Shown: piece by piece, positions 1-10,121 of the stretch | Layout: each line of letters opens with the position of its first letter | Position numbering within the stretch: position 1 is the stretch's first letter | Assembly: GCA_003022005.1 (NCBI GenBank) | Contig: PXRQ01000039.1 | Span: forward strand, 1-10,420 | DNA length: 10,420 nucleotides | From: Halobacteriales archaeon QS_5_70_15 | GTDB taxonomy: Archaea > Halobacteriota > Halobacteria > Halobacteriales > Haloarculaceae | Direction of reading: 5' to 3' | The notes under the pieces: model-generated | Seen by the model: the letters and a program-made list of their open reading frames with translations, nothing else | Database searches by the model: none | Told to the model about the DNA's origin: nothing | Made by a program: the position numbers and the translations under genes

Positions 1-721
1 GGTGGGTGACGAAGTGGTCGAGCGCCTGCACCGCCTGCCGTCGCGTCACCGGCCAGCGGAACCGCTCGGGGTCGGCCCAGTCGCCGCCGAAGGGCGGGTC
101 GTCGTACCCACCTGCGAAGGTATCGTTGACCCACTGCCGGACGCTGTCGGTTAGCTCGTCGGGCGCGAACGTCGGCGGCTCGGCAGGCGCCCAGTCTTCC
201 GGCGGCGTCTCCCGGTTCTGGTCGTCGTAGTTCCATTCGCCGCCGACCGGCTCGCCGTCGTCCATCAGATACCCGGTCTCCCGGCGCATGAACCGGTAGA
301 ACTCCTCGTGTCGGTAGCGGCCCTCGCCGTCCCACCGGTCGAACTGCGCCGGCGAACAGCAGAACCGCTCGTCGGGAACGAACTCGACGGTGCCGCCGGC
401 ATTCTCGACCAGTTCCCGGAGTCGCTGTCGTGCAGCGTCGGTCTGTGGCGCCGTCGTCACGAGGTGGTCGTCGGGCGCTGCCTGGAAATGCGCGGCGAGC
501 CCGTCTGCAAAGCTCGCTGCGCGACGATAGCGCACGTCCCGTCCCGCCGCCCGGAGCTCGTCGCGGAAATGACGCATCGCGCTGATCACCAGCGTCAGCT
601 TGTGCGGGTGATAGGGGAGCTTGCGAGCGAACGATTCCGCCTCGACGAGTAGTATCGGCTCGTCGGGGCGATTTGCCACCGGACCACGGGCGAGGTGGTC
701 CCCGCGGAGCCACACCGTCAC
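1..721 (-). CDS. Photolyase/cryptochrome-related protein (DPRP/PhrB-like), N-terminal part
   Basis: The frame is open from the left edge, so only the first 240 codons are present. The start is a GTG at 721-719; the product opens MTVWLRGDHLARG, which matches the usual opening of this family. An internal GTG at about residue 15 would remove that first strand. Family-like blocks are a KLPYHPHKLTLV segment followed by SAMRHFRDEL, and further on GYLMDDGEPVGGEWNYD with nearby N and R residues. These resemble the deoxyribodipyrimidine photolyase-related family, which includes the iron-sulfur bacterial photolyases that repair UV-induced (6-4) lesions using FAD and light. The FAD pocket and any cluster cysteines lie in the missing C-terminal half, so repair activity versus a cryptochrome-like sensor role cannot be told. 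The family assignment is recognition by eye. It is divergent from the halocyanin fragment at 832. Confidence 0.85.
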   Translation of the reverse strand, partial: MTVWLRGDHLARGPVANRPDEPILLVEAESFARKLPYHPHKLTLVISAMRHFRDELRAAGRDVRYRRAASFADGLAAHFQAAPDDHLVTTAPQTDAARQRLRELVENAGGTVEFVPDERFCCSPAQFDRWDGEGRYRHEEFYRFMRRETGYLMDDGEPVGGEWNYDDQNRETPPEDWAPAEPPTFAPDELTDSVRQWVNDTFAGGYDDPPFGGDWADPERFRWPVTRRQAVQALDHFVTH

Positions 722-831: not shown

Positions 832-1014
832 ATGAGCGACGACCAGACGCGGCGGGCGTTCATCGGTACCGCGACGCTCTCGACGGCCGGGCTGTTGGCC
901 GGCTGTGGTGGGTCAAACGGCGACCCCGAGGCTGGTACCGACTCGGCATCGATTGTTGATGCCTATCTCGATTCGACCACCAACTACAGTGGGGAGATCG
1001 ACGAGTCGGGTGCC
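832..1014 (+). pseudogene. Truncated halocyanin-like Tat lipoprotein (N-terminus only)
   Basis: From the ATG at 832 the product has a twin-arginine signal (R7-R8, followed by AFIG), a hydrophobic stretch and a lipobox LAGC with Cys25. An acidic linker and VDAYLDSTTNYSGEIDESG follow. This is the usual layout of haloarchaeal halocyanins: a Tat lipoprotein leader, then a short D/Y/N segment before the cupredoxin fold. The similarity ends at about residue 60-61 (about position 1012). The frame continues to a stop at 1305, but that part is antisense to the TadC-like gene and is proline- and serine-rich with no copper ligands. The copper domain is therefore absent, and the gene is either truncated by rearrangement or cut at a chimeric join. 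As it stands it would encode an anchored lipoprotein with no redox centre. Confidence 0.7.
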
Positions 1015-3446
1015 TATCCGACCGCGATCCAGACGACCAGCGCAATCGTCGAGAGGATGACGGCGAACTTCACGCCCGCCAGCAGTTTCACCTCACGGAT
1101 GTACCCCGCGATGAACGAGGACAGCAGCGCTTGCAGCGTGACCGCGTGGAAGAACAGCATCGATAGCGCGTCCGTGTCGACGGCGCCGCCGAAGCCGCCA
1201 CCGGGACCGGACCCGCCTCCGCCGCTGGCCTGCTCGGTCAGGCCGGCCATCACGTCGAGGAACTGCGTCTTCAGCAGCGCCATCACGCCCAGCAGCGTGA
1301 GGTAGGTCATGATGATAATGACCGTCTGCATCCGGGTCCGGGATTTCCGGGAGCGGTCGATGTCATCCTGGTTCTCGGCGGCCTGTGCCGCCGTCGAGAG
1401 CACGTCCTGAATCTGGCTGGAGGCCTCCTGGGCCTCCGCGATGAGTTTCACCGTCCGCGCCATCCGCGGGACGTGGTACTTGTTGTTGAACTCCCGCAAG
1501 GCGTCTTTGAGGCTGGTCCCGTAGTTGACCTTCGCGTGCATCGTCTCTAGCTCCTCAGAGAGCTTGCCGGCGGAGGTATCGGAGACGACGCGGATGGACT
1601 CGAGCAACGTCATCCCGGTGTCGTTGGCCGACGCGAGCTTCCGGAGGTTGTCCGAGAGGTCGCTGATAATCGCTTTCCGGGACCGGACGTTCCACTCGTA
1701 GAACACGGCCAGCGGGATGAAGTTGGTGTACATCGGCACGTACACCCAGAAGAACGTCCCGGAGACGGGATTCACTTGTAGACCGGCCAGAGTCAGGGGC
1801 GCCCAGCCGAGCACGATGGACAGCACCAACGTGAAGATGGATAGCGGCACTGTGAGCCCGAGCACCAGCAGCGGATGGTCGCGGAAGAAGTGGTGGGGCT
1901 TTTTCAGAATCTCCACCAGCTCGTAGGTCCCTTCCCGGGTCTTTATCCGGTCGAACACGCTGTAACTGCCGGTGTACTGCTCGATGAGGCCGAGGTTGAA
2001 CACCGCGATGCCCTCGTCAACGACGACCGCTTCCTCGTCGGAGTTCGGACGGAGGTAGCCGTCGCCGACGTCGTCGTGGGTGACCGTCGAGACCAGCACC
2101 AAGAAGGCGATACCGGTCAGCGGGATGAGCCCGTAGACGGTCCCGTAGATGAGCATCTGCTTGGCGTTGCCCATCATCGTCATGATGACCAGGATGATGA
2201 TGAGCAGGAGCGGGAACAGCGAGAGCGTCATGTACATCTCGCCGAACAGCTCCAGAGTCTCCAGCATCTTCTCCTGTTCCTGCTTGGTCGTCCGCATGTG
2301 CTTTTCCTTCTGGTCCTCGAGGAACGAGGTCATGTCCCCACCGGAGTTGATAATCGAGAGCATGTCGGTGAGGAACTGCGAGAGCTCGTCGGATGGGGTC
2401 TGAATCGCCTGGTTCCGGACCGCAGTCCGGTAGTCGGTATCGAAATACTCCGTCTCGAGGACGATGGATTTGAACTCCTGTGCGACCTCGCCGTAGGTGT
2501 CGTCTGCCTCGGCCATCGACTCCAGAATTTCGAGCTGGTTCAGCCCGCCCACGGAGAGGGCGTACATGAACGAAATCGCGTCAGAGAGGAGGATATTGAT
2601 TTCCCGTTCGCGCGCGTTCGCACGGAAGAACGGAATCGAGACGAGCGAGCCGAAGCCGATGCGCTCGCTCGAGACGCGGGCCGTGACGACGAACCGCGCG
2701 AGCGAGAGCGACACCGCGTAGAGGAAGAGGAGCGGGAGCGCCCACATGATCTGCGTGAACGGGTCCGGCGGGGAGAACAGCGCGCCGAAGGCGAAGATGC
2801 CGACGACGGCGTACTTCCACTTGTCGCGGAACGTCTCGTAGGGGACGATCTCGGCGTAGGCCAGCCCGGACATCACGAGCGGCAACTGCGCCGCGAGCCC
2901 GAACGAGATCGTGAGGAGGAAGATGAACTGCGCCCAGAGGACGATACTGTAGGTGGGTTCGAACCCCGCCTGGACGGCGTTCGAGGCCAGGAAGTTCAGC
3001 ATCAGGGGGAAGAACAGGAGGTAGGCGTAGGCCGCGCCGCCGAGCAGCAGCAGGAGGCTGGCCAGCGCGAGGACGACGATCTTCCACCGGGAGAGGTCGA
3101 CCCGGTCCGGTATCCAGAGGTCCCGCTCGCGGAGGCCGTCCCTGGCGTAGTAGAGCAGGAACGGCACGGAGAGTAGCGCCCCGACGACGAGGCCGATCTT
3201 CACCTGGAGGAGGATGACGTCGAAGGGGGTGACCGCCACGACCTGGATGTTCGGGTTGGTGTGGAGGTCGGCCTGCATCCGGTTCCAGACGAACGCCCGG
3301 AGCGCCCAGATGGTGAGCATGAGCCCGACCACGAACACCAGGAACACCTTCTGGAGGTGGCTCTGGGCGGCCGACAGCATCGCGCCGAGCGTTTCCCGGC
3401 CGCTGTCGACGGTCCGGACGGCGTCCTCGTCGATGGCGCCCGACAC
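1014..3446 (-). CDS. TatC-TadC in-frame fusion (Tat translocase core joined to truncated pilus platform protein)
   Basis: Read from the GTG at 3446 (opening MSGAIDEDAVRT) this is 810 residues. Residues 1-262 are a TatC: six hydrophobic segments (about 34-52, 76-100, 122-148, 168-194, 211-225, 231-254), with TPFDVILLQVKIG, AYAYLLFFPL, QLPLVMSGL and FSPPDPFTQIMWALP, as in the shorter of the two haloarchaeal TatC types. From about residue 263 (GFGSLVSIPFFRAN) it is a haloarchaeal TadC/T2SF protein. It has two repeats (about 275-425 and 586-727), each a helical cytoplasmic block followed by membrane segments, a glycine-rich loop at 741-754, and a plausible native C-terminus. The TatC lacks its usual C-terminal tail, and the TadC lacks roughly its first 150 residues. 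In-frame upstream codons to 3833 are GC-rich shadow sequence. No natural TatC-TadC fusion is known to me, so this may be a chimeric join. The two domain identities are secure; the fusion is not. Confidence 0.8.
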   Translation of the reverse strand: MSGAIDEDAVRTVDSGRETLGAMLSAAQSHLQKVFLVFVVGLMLTIWALRAFVWNRMQADLHTNPNIQVVAVTPFDVILLQVKIGLVVGALLSVPFLLYYARDGLRERDLWIPDRVDLSRWKIVVLALASLLLLLGGAAYAYLLFFPLMLNFLASNAVQAGFEPTYSIVLWAQFIFLLTISFGLAAQLPLVMSGLAYAEIVPYETFRDKWKYAVVGIFAFGALFSPPDPFTQIMWALPLLFLYAVSLSLARFVVTARVSSERIGFGSLVSIPFFRANAREREINILLSDAISFMYALSVGGLNQLEILESMAEADDTYGEVAQEFKSIVLETEYFDTDYRTAVRNQAIQTPSDELSQFLTDMLSIINSGGDMTSFLEDQKEKHMRTTKQEQEKMLETLELFGEMYMTLSLFPLLLIIILVIMTMMGNAKQMLIYGTVYGLIPLTGIAFLVLVSTVTHDDVGDGYLRPNSDEEAVVVDEGIAVFNLGLIEQYTGSYSVFDRIKTREGTYELVEILKKPHHFFRDHPLLVLGLTVPLSIFTLVLSIVLGWAPLTLAGLQVNPVSGTFFWVYVPMYTNFIPLAVFYEWNVRSRKAIISDLSDNLRKLASANDTGMTLLESIRVVSDTSAGKLSEELETMHAKVNYGTSLKDALREFNNKYHVPRMARTVKLIAEAQEASSQIQDVLSTAAQAAENQDDIDRSRKSRTRMQTVIIIMTYLTLLGVMALLKTQFLDVMAGLTEQASGGGGSGPGGGFGGAVDTDALSMLFFHAVTLQALLSSFIAGYIREVKLLAGVKFAVILSTIALVVWIAVG
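2642..2671. repeat. 9-bp inverted repeat at the TatC/TadC junction
   Basis: CGAGCGAGC at 2642-2650 is the exact reverse complement of GCTCGCTCG at 2663-2671, separated by 12 bases. It lies where TatC-like sequence (ending near Glu261) gives way to TadC-like sequence (from about Gly264). GC also steps at this point: sampled lines run 55-60% to the left and 65% or more to the right. The repeat encodes Ser-Ser-Glu-Arg on one arm and Gly-Ser-Leu-Val on the other, so it may be codon coincidence. It could also mark where a template switch or recombination occurred. Confidence 0.5.
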
Positions 3447-3673
3447 ACGGGCCCGTTGGGGACAACCGCCTATCAATCCCCTGTTTCGGTGCGTCAGTGA
3501 GATTCCACGACCCCGACGCGACGACCCCGGGCCGGTCCTCGCGCGGGTCGTCGGGAGGTGGTGGGGGTCCGACGGCGGGACGGTGTCGAGCGTCCGTCGC
3601 ACGGGCCCGGAACCGCGGGCACGTCCCGAGGCAAGAAGAAGGCTTACAAGCGCATAGAACCCACCCGAGGACG
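3447..3673. promoter_or_regulatory. Divergent promoter region between the two tatC genes
   Basis: This gene-free spacer separates the minus-strand tatC start (GTG at 3446) from the plus-strand start (ATG at 3674). On the plus strand AAGGCTTACAAG, ending at 3650, gives a TATA-like core CTTACAA at 3643-3649. That is about 26 bases before 3672, which fits a leaderless transcript starting at or just before the ATG. On the minus strand a less convincing ATTGATAG-type element lies near 3470-3478, about 30 bases before the GTG. The middle (3500-3640) is very GC-rich, with no feature I recognise. Confidence 0.5.
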
Positions 3674-5266
3674 ATGGGAGACGAGGTGCCCGACGAGGGG
3701 GCGGACGACGCGCCCGACCCGGAGTCCGGGGAGGAGCCGTCGGCCCGTGCCGACGACGACGCCGGCACCCCCGAGGACGCCTCGAACGACGCCGACACCC
3801 CCGAGGACGCGGGGACGGAAACGGGATCGCCACCGGGATCCACGGATGCCGATGGGGATGGTGAAACCGGGACGGACGAGGGGGATGCGGACGGGGGGCT
3901 CTGGGCGGACATCACCGTCCCCGAGGACGCCTCGACCGGCGATGCGGGGGACGCCGGGGGCGAGTCGGTCGACGCCGGCGCGGGCGGTCCGACGGACGAC
4001 GAAGCGGCAGCCGACGGGACGACGGACGAGGAGACCGCCGGGGTCGGGGACGAAGTGGACGGCGGGAACACCGACGGAGCCGACGAGGTAGAGGACGACG
4101 CCGGGGACGGGGACGGGATCCCCGACGACTACGACCCGTTCCAGCCGTCGGTCGACCTCGACTACGGGGCCCACCAGTACCCCAGTCCGGCCGCCGACGA
4201 TGACGGGGAGGGCGAGGAGCCGGACGCCGACGGCTCGGGAACGGACGGCCCGGACGGCCCGGACGACACGGACGACGTTGACGACACGGCCAGTACGGAT
4301 GACGCGGACGCCGGGGCAGGCGGCGCGTCCTCCGACGCCGGGCACGCCCCCGACCCGGAGGAGATGACCGAGGAGTGGTCGGCCGACGAGGTGGTGCCCG
4401 GCGGGGACATGGGCGAGGCGGGCGACGCCTCGGCGGCGAAGTCCGACGGGGGCTACGCCGACGGGACCGACGCGGTCGGCGGGTACGAACCGGTGACGGA
4501 GGACGACGAGGAGCTCTTCGAGGGGCCCCCCGACGACCAGGAGATGCCGCTCGCGGACCACATCGAGGAGATGGTCCGCCGGCTCGGGGTCGTCCTCGTC
4601 GTGATGGCGATCGTCTCGGGGATCGTCTTCCCGTTCGGCGAGCGGATCATCAACTTCCTCTGGTACAGCGTGCTGGTGTCGGACCCCGTTCCACAGCCGC
4701 GGGTCTACCACCCGCTCGCGCTGGTCCTCGCGCGGCTGAAGGTGGCGACGCTCGCCGGGTTCATCGTCGCGCTGCCCGTCTTCGTCTACGAGTCGTACCT
4801 GTTCATGCGACCGGGGCTCTACCCCCACGAACGGCGCTACTACCTCGCGAGCGTCCCCACCAGCCTCGTCCTCGCCACCGTCGGGGTGCTGTTCGCCTAC
4901 TTCCTCGTCCTGCCGGCGCTGTTCACCTACTTCCTCTACTACTCCGACGAGGTGACGATCATCGCGTTCGGGCTGACCGAGACGTTCGACCTGATGGTCC
5001 TCATGCTCGGCGGGTTCGCGTTCATCTTCCAGATCCCGCTGTTCGTGATGCTCGCCATCATGATGGGGCTCACGACCCGGCAGTGGATGGCCGACCGGCG
5101 CCTCTACTTCTGGGGAGCGTTCCTCGGGCTGGCGTTCCTGTTCAGCCCGGATCCGACCGGCATGGCGCCCATCATCGTCGCCGCGACGATGGTCGCGCTG
5201 TTCGAGGGGACGCTGTTCCTCCTGAAGTGGACCAAGCGGGGCCGCAGGCGGGCCCCCGGAGGGTGA
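3674..5266 (+). CDS. tatC: Twin-arginine translocase subunit TatC (second type) with long acidic N-terminal tail
   Basis: The product is 530 residues, starting at the ATG at 3674 and placed there by a TATA-like element at 3643-3649. Residues 1 to about 284 are a low-complexity tail rich in D, G, A, E and T, with no hydrophobic segment. The TatC domain follows: MPLADHIEEMVRRL at 291-304, then six membrane segments between about 305 and 517. Family blocks are FMRPGLYPHERR (377-388), FAYFLVLPALFTYF (407-420), FQIPLFVMLA (452-461) and SPDPTGMAPI (491-500). TatC recognises RR signal peptides and forms the core of the Tat pore; haloarchaea export most secreted proteins this way. It is divergent from the TatC of the fusion gene, the arrangement expected for the two haloarchaeal tatC genes. 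The tail is much longer than in bacterial TatC and would lie on the cytoplasmic side. Confidence 0.92.
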   Translation: MGDEVPDEGADDAPDPESGEEPSARADDDAGTPEDASNDADTPEDAGTETGSPPGSTDADGDGETGTDEGDADGGLWADITVPEDASTGDAGDAGGESVDAGAGGPTDDEAAADGTTDEETAGVGDEVDGGNTDGADEVEDDAGDGDGIPDDYDPFQPSVDLDYGAHQYPSPAADDDGEGEEPDADGSGTDGPDGPDDTDDVDDTASTDDADAGAGGASSDAGHAPDPEEMTEEWSADEVVPGGDMGEAGDASAAKSDGGYADGTDAVGGYEPVTEDDEELFEGPPDDQEMPLADHIEEMVRRLGVVLVVMAIVSGIVFPFGERIINFLWYSVLVSDPVPQPRVYHPLALVLARLKVATLAGFIVALPVFVYESYLFMRPGLYPHERRYYLASVPTSLVLATVGVLFAYFLVLPALFTYFLYYSDEVTIIAFGLTETFDLMVLMLGGFAFIFQIPLFVMLAIMMGLTTRQWMADRRLYFWGAFLGLAFLFSPDPTGMAPIIVAATMVALFEGTLFLLKWTKRGRRRAPGG

Positions 5267-5305: not shown

Positions 5306-5989
5306 GTCGTCCGACACGGTGAGACCGACTGGAACCTGCGCGGCCGGATGCAGGGGTGGGCGCCGGTCCCGCTGAACGGCACCGGGCGGGAACAGGCCGA
5401 CGACGTCGGCCGCTACCTCGTCCGCGAGTACGACGTCGACCGGGTCGTCTCGTCGGGCCTCGAGCGGACCCACGAGACGACCGAACTCGTCACTGCGCAC
5501 GTGGACGCGCCCGTGACCTGCGAGTCCGCGTGGCGCGAGCGATACATCGGCGTCTACCAGGGGCTCGACTACGAGGACGTCGTCGAGCGGTTCCCGGCGT
5601 TCGCCCTCGGGGAGAGGGGCATCGAAGCCGTCGACCGGACCCCGGAGTCCGGCGAGTCCCTGCTGGAGGTCCGCGAGCGCGTGGTCGAGGCGTGGCGGGC
5701 GCTGCTCGACGGCGACGACGCGTCGGGGACGGCCGCCGGCGACGGGGACGGCGACAGCGAGTGGGAGACGGCGCTCGTGGTGACCCACGGCGGCCCGATC
5801 AAACTCCTGCTCGGACACCTCAAGGGGATGGACGCCCGGACGTCGCTGCGCGAGCACGCCCAGTCCAACTGCGCGGTCAACGAGATCCGCGTCGACGGGG
5901 ACGACGCCGAGGTGGTTCGGGAGAACGTCACCGGGTGGGCCGACGGGACGGACGCGGGGGTGGGTGACCCCTCCGAGGACGGGGAGTAG
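5306..5989 (+). CDS. Histidine phosphatase (phosphoglycerate mutase-like), start codon missing
   Basis: The protein carries the branch's hallmark RHGETDWN, with the catalytic histidine codon at 5315-5317. It continues with GRMQGWAPVPLNGTGREQA, a VVSSGLERTHETTE block, the acidic WRERYIGVYQGLDYED segment, and the second catalytic histidine in VVTHGGPI (codon at 5786). It ends in an acidic tail at a TAG at 5987-5989. These residues point to a 2-histidine phosphatase acting on a phosphorylated small molecule or sugar; the substrate is not deducible. The nearest in-frame start, ATG at 5348, lies after the catalytic RHG and would give a dead protein. Between the tatC stop (5264-5266) and 5348 there is no ATG, GTG or TTG in frame. 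The region before VVRHG does not look like a normal beta strand with a methionine, so the true start appears deleted or altered. Confidence 0.8.
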   Translation, partial: VVRHGETDWNLRGRMQGWAPVPLNGTGREQADDVGRYLVREYDVDRVVSSGLERTHETTELVTAHVDAPVTCESAWRERYIGVYQGLDYEDVVERFPAFALGERGIEAVDRTPESGESLLEVRERVVEAWRALLDGDDASGTAAGDGDGDSEWETALVVTHGGPIKLLLGHLKGMDARTSLREHAQSNCAVNEIRVDGDDAEVVRENVTGWADGTDAGVGDPSEDGE

Positions 5990-6965: not shown

Positions 6966-7892
6966 TCACTCCCCGACGGGGTAGTCGGCGTCGAGGACCG
7001 CGTTCGCGGCCTCCTCCTCGCTTCCACCGTTCTCCTCGTCGCTCTCTCCCGCCGGGCTCACACTTCCAGTCCGGTAGCCAGAGAGGTCGAGCGTGACGTG
7101 GTCGAAGCCGATCTCCGAGAGGTGTTCATTGGCGGCCTCGGCGAAGCCGGGGTCGAGCGCCCGGTCGAGTTCGTCCGCGCCCACCTCGATGCGGGCGAGG
7201 CCGTCGTGGTCGCGCACGCGGAACTGCTCGAAGCCCCAGTCCCGGAGGAGCCGCTCGGCACGCTCGACGCGGGAGAGCCGCTCCTCGGTCACCTCGATCC
7301 CCGTGGGTATGCGCGAGGAGAGACACGCCATCGAGGGCTTGTCCGCGACCGAGAGGTCGTACCTGCGGGCCGTCTCGCGGACGTCCTCCTTGGTGAACCC
7401 GTGCTCCAGCAGCGGTGAGTACGCGTCCATCTCCGCGACCGCGCGGAGGCCGGGCCGGTGGCCCTCGCCGGGGTCGGAGGCGTTCGTCCCGTCACAGACC
7501 ACGTCGATGCCGAGTTCGCGGGCCTTCTCGAACATCTTTCCGAGGCGCATCGTCCGGCAGTGGTAGCAGCGGTCGCCGTCGTTGACGACGAAGTCCGGAT
7601 CGTCGAGTTCGGAGAAGGCGACGGTCTCGTGGCGGATCCCGATCTCGTCGGCGACCCGTCGGGCGTCCTCGAGTTCGGCCTCGGGGAGCGTCTCGCTCCG
7701 GGCGGTACAGGCGACGGCGTCGTCGCCGAGCGCGTCGCGGGCGAGCGCGGCGACGACGCTCGAGTCCACGCCCCCGGAGAAGGCGACGAGAACGCCGTCG
7801 AACCCCGCGAGGTCGGCCCGTGCGGCCTCGATCTTCGCGTCGAGCGATCCCTTGACGTCGGCCGGCGCCCCCTCTCCCGCGTGGTCGGTCAT
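6966..7892 (-). CDS. larE: ATP-dependent sacrificial sulfur transferase LarE
   Basis: The product is 308 residues, from the ATG at 7892. It has an adenine-nucleotide alpha-hydrolase PP-loop, SGGVDSS at 39-45, followed by TARSETLPEAELEDA. A CYHC pair follows (C109, C112), then DGTNASD (134-140), DKPSMACLSSRIPTG (184-198) with Cys190 at the position that donates sulfur in LarE, and GYRTGS at 272-277. LarE adenylates the pyridinium biscarboxylate intermediate and transfers sulfur from its own cysteine to build the nickel-pincer cofactor. Many archaeal homologues occur without the rest of the pathway and may serve other sulfur-transfer reactions. No larB or larC is in this window. A TATA-like GGCTTTTCA on the minus strand (about 7915-7923), about 26 bases before the ATG, suggests a leaderless transcript. 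The N-terminal 15 residues and the acidic C-terminal loop at 283-297 look haloarchaeal-specific. Confidence 0.93.
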   Translation of the reverse strand: MTDHAGEGAPADVKGSLDAKIEAARADLAGFDGVLVAFSGGVDSSVVAALARDALGDDAVACTARSETLPEAELEDARRVADEIGIRHETVAFSELDDPDFVVNDGDRCYHCRTMRLGKMFEKARELGIDVVCDGTNASDPGEGHRPGLRAVAEMDAYSPLLEHGFTKEDVRETARRYDLSVADKPSMACLSSRIPTGIEVTEERLSRVERAERLLRDWGFEQFRVRDHDGLARIEVGADELDRALDPGFAEAANEHLSEIGFDHVTLDLSGYRTGSVSPAGESDEENGGSEEEAANAVLDADYPVGE

Positions 7893-8477: not shown

Positions 8478-9071
8478 ATGGCAGAGTACGACGCGGCGTC
8501 GCTGACCGGTCGCGAGCGGGCGCGGATAATCAAGAGCGCGGTGACGCCCCGGCCGATCGCCTGGGTGTCCTCGCGGAGCGAGGACGGGATCGACAACCTC
8601 GCGCCGTACAGTTCGTACAACTACGTCTCCTCGAACCAGCCGGTGGTGACGTTCCACTCGCCGAACGAGGACCACGGTGGACTCAAGGACTCGGCGCGGA
8701 ACGCCGTCGAGACGGGCGAGTTCGCCGTGAACGTCGTGACCGAGCCGCTGATGGAGGTCATGGACAGCACCTCGGCGAAGCTGCCGCCCGAGGAGAGCGA
8801 GTTCGACTCGGTGGGTATCGAGCGCGCGGAGTGTACGGCCATCGACGCCCCCCGGGTCGCCGCCGCCCCGGTGACGATGGAATGTACCCTCCACGACAGG
8901 ATCGAGGTGTCCGACCGGCTGATGGTCCTCGGCGAGGTCGTCCACTTCCACGTCTCCGAGGACGTCACGACCGACGGGAAGGTCGACCAGCGGGAGCTCC
9001 CGACGGTCGGACGGCTCGGCGGGCCGTACTACACCGTCTCCGAACCGGCCGAGTTCGAGCGCCAGTTCTGA
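8478..9071 (+). CDS. Flavin reductase-like, FMN-binding split-barrel protein
   Basis: The product is 197 residues. The ATG at 8478 was chosen because a TATA-like element lies just upstream and because MAEYDAASLTGRERARIIKS is the normal opening; in-frame codons further upstream are antisense to larE or non-coding. Family features are TPRPIAWVSSRSEDGIDNLAPYSSYNYVSSNQPVVTF at about 22-58, which lines the flavin site, then HSPNEDHGGLKDSARNAVETGEFAVNVV, the usual middle of the domain. A strand-rich C-terminal half contains LMVLGEVVHFHVSED and GRLGGPYYTVSE. Proteins of this family bind FMN and use NAD(P)H, or accept electrons from it, to reduce flavin for a partner enzyme; no partner gene is adjacent. 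It appears to be a single-gene unit ending at 9071. Confidence 0.88.
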   Translation: MAEYDAASLTGRERARIIKSAVTPRPIAWVSSRSEDGIDNLAPYSSYNYVSSNQPVVTFHSPNEDHGGLKDSARNAVETGEFAVNVVTEPLMEVMDSTSAKLPPEESEFDSVGIERAECTAIDAPRVAAAPVTMECTLHDRIEVSDRLMVLGEVVHFHVSEDVTTDGKVDQRELPTVGRLGGPYYTVSEPAEFERQF

Positions 9072-9338: not shown

Positions 9339-10121
9339 ATGTCCAACAGAATCGACGTAACGGAACTCGACCTCAGCGACGCGGAGCTAGTACAGCTACT
9401 GAAGAACCACGGCATCGACCGCCGGATGTTGCTGAAACTGGTCGGCGCCGGGGCTGGGGTTTCGGCGCTCGGCGGGACGGCGGCCGGCGCCCCGAACCGG
9501 GGCAACCGGATCGACGAGGTGTACGGCGCCACGTACGCGGCGGGACGGGACACCGTCCCCTCGGGACTCGTCGACCACGCCGTGGACCTTCACGTCCACG
9601 AGGGTGACGCCGCCCACGAGGGGTTCCCGGCGCCCGACGGCGAAGACCCGGACGACCAGGACGACGCCCCGGAGACCTTCTTCGACCCGGTCGGTCTCCA
9701 CGTCAGACCCGGAGAGATCGTCAGCTTCACCACCCACGGCGACGGTCTCCACACGGTGACGGCGTTCGATCCGAAGTTCAACGAGCCACCGTTCCTCGTC
9801 CTCCCGGACCGGGTCCCGACGGACTACGGGTTCACGTCGCCTCCGGTCGCGGAGAACGACACGTGGCTCTACGAGTTCACCGAAAAGGGTGTCTACGACC
9901 TGTTCTGTCTGCCGCACGTGCCGCTGGGGATGGTGATGCGTGCCGTCGTGTTCGATCCGGAGGAGGACGACATCGGGAGTTCGACCTTCGACGAGCCCGA
10001 ACCGGATTCCGAGGCACCGCTCCCCCCGAACGCCGCTGCCGTGTTGGATACGATTGAACTGGATCCGGCGAACGTCGTCAGCGAGGGAACGGTCGCCTGG
10101 AGCGACCTGACGCTCCCGTAG
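9339..10121 (+). CDS. Tat-exported halocyanin-like blue copper protein
   Basis: The ATG at 9339 gives 260 residues. A 27-residue n-region (DLSDAELVQLLKNHGI) precedes Arg28-Arg29 and a hydrophobic stretch to about residue 50. This is a Tat signal, but no lipobox cysteine follows, so the protein is probably released or held by other means. The cupredoxin part runs from about 117 to 207: LHVRPGEIVSFTTHGDGLHTVTAF with His138, then VYDLFCLPHVPLGMV with Cys190, His193 and Met198. That is the Cys-x2-His-x4-Met pattern of type 1 copper sites. Such proteins carry single electrons at the outer membrane face in haloarchaeal respiration. An insert of about 20 residues separates the first ligand from the Cys loop, and an acidic tail of about 50 residues follows the domain. 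It is intact, unlike the halocyanin fragment at 832. Confidence 0.85.
   Translation: MSNRIDVTELDLSDAELVQLLKNHGIDRRMLLKLVGAGAGVSALGGTAAGAPNRGNRIDEVYGATYAAGRDTVPSGLVDHAVDLHVHEGDAAHEGFPAPDGEDPDDQDDAPETFFDPVGLHVRPGEIVSFTTHGDGLHTVTAFDPKFNEPPFLVLPDRVPTDYGFTSPPVAENDTWLYEFTEKGVYDLFCLPHVPLGMVMRAVVFDPEEDDIGSSTFDEPEPDSEAPLPPNAAAVLDTIELDPANVVSEGTVAWSDLTLP

Follow-up and report, generated by a model that had tools for sequence, protein, structure and literature searches.

Gene content of the window

The window, that is, the whole stretch of 10,420 nucleotides from Halobacteriales archaeon QS_5_70_15 that was analysed, contains on its minus strand one open frame of 810 codons, which begins with GTG at 3446 and ends at 1014; the open frame itself extends to 3833. 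Pfam analysis of the 810-codon frame placed a TatC domain at residues 24-238 (E 2.8e-43), followed by the T2SSF domain (PF00482) in two stretches (E 9e-29). The frame consists of a TatC domain and then, in frame, the last ~547 residues of a TadC/FlaJ platform protein. From the open frame and the Pfam placement, both the TatC-TadC join and a truncated halocyanin gene are therefore really present in the sequence. The features were as follows.

2..721, minus strand: DPRP (photolyase-related protein), N-terminal 240 aa, Haloarcula-like, cut by the window edge (Pfam PF04244, E 2.6e-56)
832..1013, plus strand: halocyanin-type lipoprotein gene, N-terminal ~60 aa, cut off at the join and divergent from the adjacent DPRP gene
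1005..1016, no strand, approximate: join 1, from halocyanin to the 3' end of tadC (halocyanin pattern lost, tadC stop codon at 1014-1016)
1014..2662, minus strand: C-terminal ~547 aa of TadC/FlaJ, Haloarcula-like, without the first ~131 aa (PF00482 in two stretches)
2642..2662, minus strand: join 2, inside a 21-nt word made up of the last bases of an R codon, the codons for IGFGSL and one base of the codon that follows
2642..3446, minus strand: first half of a haloarchaeal TatCt, with its N-terminal TatC domain (Pfam TatC, E 2.8e-43; identity to P0121)
3497..5266, plus strand, start putative: single-domain TatC gene divergent from tatCt (Pfam TatC at 354-562, E 7.7e-43), which we take to be of the TatCo type
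5348..5989, plus strand: histidine phosphatase, branch 1 (Pfam PF00300, E 4.1e-35)
6966..7892, minus strand: NAD-synthase/asparagine-synthase-like ATP pyrophosphatase (Pfam PF02540, E 1.8e-10), presumably LarE-like

At the left end, the halocyanin family pattern was kept until about DESGA and then lost, next to the tadC stop codon, so the break that the initial annotation had noticed at the far end of the segment is real and lies 1.65 kb from join 2. A protein search for intact halocyanin relatives gave five candidates, none of them at E <= 0.001. The GC content did fall in 1014-2655, as had been stated, but this step alone is weak evidence because native Haloarcula tadC has the same GC content, already below that of the tatC half: the tadC segment of the window had a GC of 0.613, inside the range of 0.588-0.629 of the five native tadC genes from Haloarcula, and in a single genome of this genus the values were 0.608 for tadC and 0.638 for the tatC half. 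GC together with GC3 was considered as proof of foreign origin and judged weak, tadC being naturally lower in GC.

The two parts of the frame and their shared motif at the join

Residues 1-268 of the window frame were identical, letter for letter, to those of the intact 942-aa TatC protein P0121, and the first difference appeared at residue 269. P0121 contains two TatC stretches and continues past residue 268 towards the second one. Eight proteins of 928-972 aa were 82-97% identical to the TatC half over the aligned part (among the matches listed, the best 120 of 2,779), the best relative in named genomes reached 69% (among the best 80 of 239 relatives), and the best of 391 whole genomes was G315, with 77% identity. 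A second TatC lay in the same frame at all 82 tatC loci examined (the best 80 of the 239 relatives and two further stretches, some of them ending at contig ends), and Pfam found none in the window frame. The TatC of the window had been described as lacking its normal tail; the tail is indeed absent, but what is missing is the linker and the whole second TatC domain. Two TatC domains are the norm in haloarchaeal TatCt, as PMC13186574 states for Halobacterium.

The lengths of the TatC-like proteins also varied. Among the 61 stored, 14 had 928-1009 aa instead of 702-774 aa, and one more had 491 aa. A linker motif like AILDRFDEV occurred at least twice in 11 of the 14 long proteins, as if the linker between the TatC domains had been duplicated; the candidates were P0121-P0128, P0130, P0133 and P0134, together with locus L162 of G315. 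The two linker halves of P0121 were 33.5% identical to each other over 164 residues (E 3e-6), and those of P0122, P0126 and P0128 were 53-56% identical over 49-50 residues. The frame of G315 had 1016 aa and was matched by P0121 in two pieces that overlapped in the query, which may represent the same linker duplication.

On the TadC side, residues 264-810 of the window frame aligned with residues 132-680 of the 680-aa protein P0001, with 529 of 547 residues identical and T2SSF in two stretches in both proteins. Since this alignment begins at residue 132 of P0001, ~131 TadC residues are missing, not the ~150 initially proposed, although the in-frame run of TatC into TadC itself was confirmed by the open frame and the Pfam matches. 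None of six TadC proteins stored and compared was identical to the TadC parent, P0001 being the best. A tadC on a Halobaculum plasmid matched the window by blastn at 1016-2662, the same borders as those of the TadC part.

The passage from one part to the other was located by comparing the proteins at the junction. P0121 and the window have VTARVSSERIGFGSL in common, followed by ARERWN in P0121 and by VSIPFF in the window; the sequence of TadC proteins here is (I)GFGSLVSIP. The switch is therefore placed within a motif that tatC and tadC share. Among 194 stored proteins, GFGSLVSIP was present in all 84 that contain SLVSIP and IGFGSLVSIP in 64 of the 84, while IGFGSL was found in three of the 61 TatC-like proteins (P0121-P0123). 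The initial annotation had put the join near 2655, and the switch does occur in this region, but at no single base: it may lie anywhere within 2642-2662.

At the nucleotide level, the Haloarcula tadC locus L124 matched the window at the join over 22 nt, of which 14 nt precede the split at the serine codon on its left side and 8 nt lie on its right side. The longest word that L124 has in common with the tatC side was 21 nt (2662 to 2642), where the bases on the tatC side are the window's own and would be those of tatC by the protein identity to P0121. In five other tadC loci the longest word shared with the tatC side, as the best of both strands, had 11-14 nt; in nine control loci it had 12-15 nt. 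The word that the true parents had in common may be less than 21 nt long, because L124 was the only one of the 10 tadC loci compared that contained the whole word, and P0001, the closest TadC protein, reads AGFGSL at this place and not IGFGSL.

Relatives and gene order on the two sides of join 2

The best relatives of the window differed between the two sides, and the order of identities was reversed across 2642-2662. To the left of join 2, DPRP was 70-76% identical in Haloarcula against 57% in G315, and TadC was 84-91% identical in seven Haloarcula/Halomicroarcula genomes against 74% in G315. To the right, the TatC half was 60-66% identical in Haloarcula against 77% in G315, and the same order was observed for the following genes when Haloarcula salina (L016) was compared with G315 (L162): 66 against 82% for TatCo, 42 against 60% for the phosphatase and 76 against 82% for the LarE-like protein. 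G315 is a relative and not the source of the right part. The two source organisms are related at the family level, since G315 and the Haloarcula genomes appear in one family search.

The gene order on the right was that of the usual tat neighbourhood. Among the 82 tatC loci, some of which end at contig ends, tatCo was a neighbour at 77, the LarE-like gene at 55 and the phosphatase at 40, and DPRP, halocyanin or tadC was found near tatC at none. The genes at 8547-9071 and 9339-10121 had their best matches among six genomes in G083 (51% and 63%, respectively) and did not group clearly with either G315 or Haloarcula; the link of the right part to G315 therefore extends no further than the LarE-like gene. 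The product of 9339-10121 resembled a plastocyanin/azurin-like secreted protein, with the Pfam Copper-bind domain just below the cut-off; among the same six genomes, it was at most 46% identical to any protein outside G083. It presumably carries a twin-arginine-like motif after ~27 residues.

On the left, DPRP had the identities given above in 29 of the 32 genomes of the genus of Haloarcula rara (G011); two had no match and the remaining one, G009, had only a short fragment with stops. DPRP was likewise without a match in three further genomes that are close relatives in TatC. The divergent pair of DPRP and halocyanin was also adjoining, as in the window, in G008, G009, G010, G007 and G013 (loci L082 and L086 for G007 and G013), that is, in at least five Haloarcula/Halomicroarcula genomes. 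In contrast to the window, tadC and DPRP were apart in all seven genomes compared: they lay 0.48 Mb (G013) and 2.29 Mb (G011) from each other on one contig, and on different contigs in five genomes, including G009 with its DPRP fragment. On the single contig of G011, DPRP was at ~0.30, tatC at ~1.69 and tadC at ~2.59 Mb. The two joins, 1.65 kb apart, thus link three loci that are apart in these relatives.

These data bear on the possibility of a real recombination, in which a cell would have taken up Haloarcula-like DNA and joined it to its tatCt at the common word, leaving tatCt, tadC and halocyanin broken. Both left pieces look Haloarcula-like, as expected from one donor, and natural end-joining also uses short shared words. 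Such an event would, however, need two donor loci to be joined as well, and these lay apart in all seven genomes compared; in addition, P0121 is an intact relative with identity over 268 residues. It would further entail the loss of TatCt, which PMC7305310 lists among the genes considered essential in Haloferax volcanii, attempts to obtain deletion mutants having failed. A recombination in nature would require three loci to come together and a gene considered essential in Haloferax to be broken, and we regard it as very unlikely.

Origin of the joined frame

The initial annotation had proposed that a TatC-TadC fusion would tether Tat export to the pilus-like machinery, and searches for such a protein elsewhere did not support this proposal. 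In one protein search, all of the best 120 of 2,502 matches contained T2SSF only, with a best coverage of 74%; in a second, all of the best 120 of 2,779 contained only TatC or only T2SSF, with a best coverage of 76%. None of the 194 proteins stored from these two sets carried both TatC and TadC motifs. A looser test, which combined a tripeptide with the TatC motif, flagged three TatC proteins, none of which had the more specific TadC motifs. None of the patterns of the join matched in the viral contigs searched, and among the plasmids searched, six records had matches, three to tadC and three to tatC, none to both. Among the papers listed from the open-licence literature searched, none was, by title or the start of the abstract, about a fusion of TatC with TadC. 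The same join, looked for in related genomes, was found at 0 of 82 tatC loci and in 0 of 194 stored proteins.

A genuine expressed fusion, with Tat export coupled to a type IV pilus-like platform, would agree with the frame being open through both domains and with the two T2SSF stretches kept in the TadC part, as in P0001. It is also topologically plausible, the end of TatC and the first domain of TadC both being expected in the cytoplasm. Such a protein would, however, lack the second TatC domain and the first ~131 residues of TadC, and every match among those listed in the two protein searches had one domain type. On these grounds, a functional fusion is highly improbable. If true, two export systems would be connected for which no fused homologue appeared among the matches listed. 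It would be a great surprise if a haloarchaeon really had the recombinant gene and made a TatC-TadC protein that ties the export of folded proteins to a platform for pilus-like assembly.

The window is very probably a chimeric contig, a technical join of DNA from different haloarchaea, rather than a fused gene. What looks like a fusion would then be ordinary, most likely an assembly error at a short word present in both genes. The initial annotation had itself called a chimeric join at least as likely, and this doubt was supported by the identity with P0121 up to the word, the conservation of the TadC motif, the word in L124 and the 82 loci with an intact tatCt.

The steps leading to the window may be as follows. 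The right part, from ~2642 and at least to the LarE-like gene, would be a normal tatCt-tatCo neighbourhood from an organism nearer to G315, and the left part, up to ~2662, would derive from one Haloarcula-like organism or from two and consist of two pieces that meet near 1010. Within 2642-2662, the assembly, or template switching while the library was prepared, would have passed from tatCt to tadC via a short word for GFGSL or IGFGSL in both genes, of up to 21 nt, and the frame would have stayed open because the word lies in the same frame in tatCt and tadC. No fused protein would exist; a normal two-domain TatCt would be present in one organism and a normal TadC in another. The window probably originated from a metagenome, as its relatives suggest. 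We infer both the technical nature of the switch and the technique responsible, and a technical chimera accounts for all observations by known events. With this reading, a false domain fusion is removed, and a concrete route of error is proposed, namely a short word for a conserved glycine-rich motif that lies in frame in two unrelated membrane-protein genes.

Compared with known systems, the window resembles haloarchaeal TatCt (TatC2, two fused TatC domains) in that its residues 1-268 represent the first TatC domain and the usual divergent single-TatC neighbour is present, but it differs from TatCt by the absence of the linker and the second domain. Its TadC part is like an archaeal TadC/FlaJ-type platform protein (T2SSF, PF00482) in the alignment with P0001 and unlike one in the missing N-terminus and in its surroundings, where a Pfam scan of proteins of the window revealed no further pilus gene. 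The window also resembles the interspecies chimeric contigs of metagenome assembly, which are frequent in the benchmark of PMC8171044 and are recognised there by non-overlapping parts with best relatives in different organisms; the window shares this property and differs in that, by chance, the reading frame stays open across its join and through both membrane proteins.
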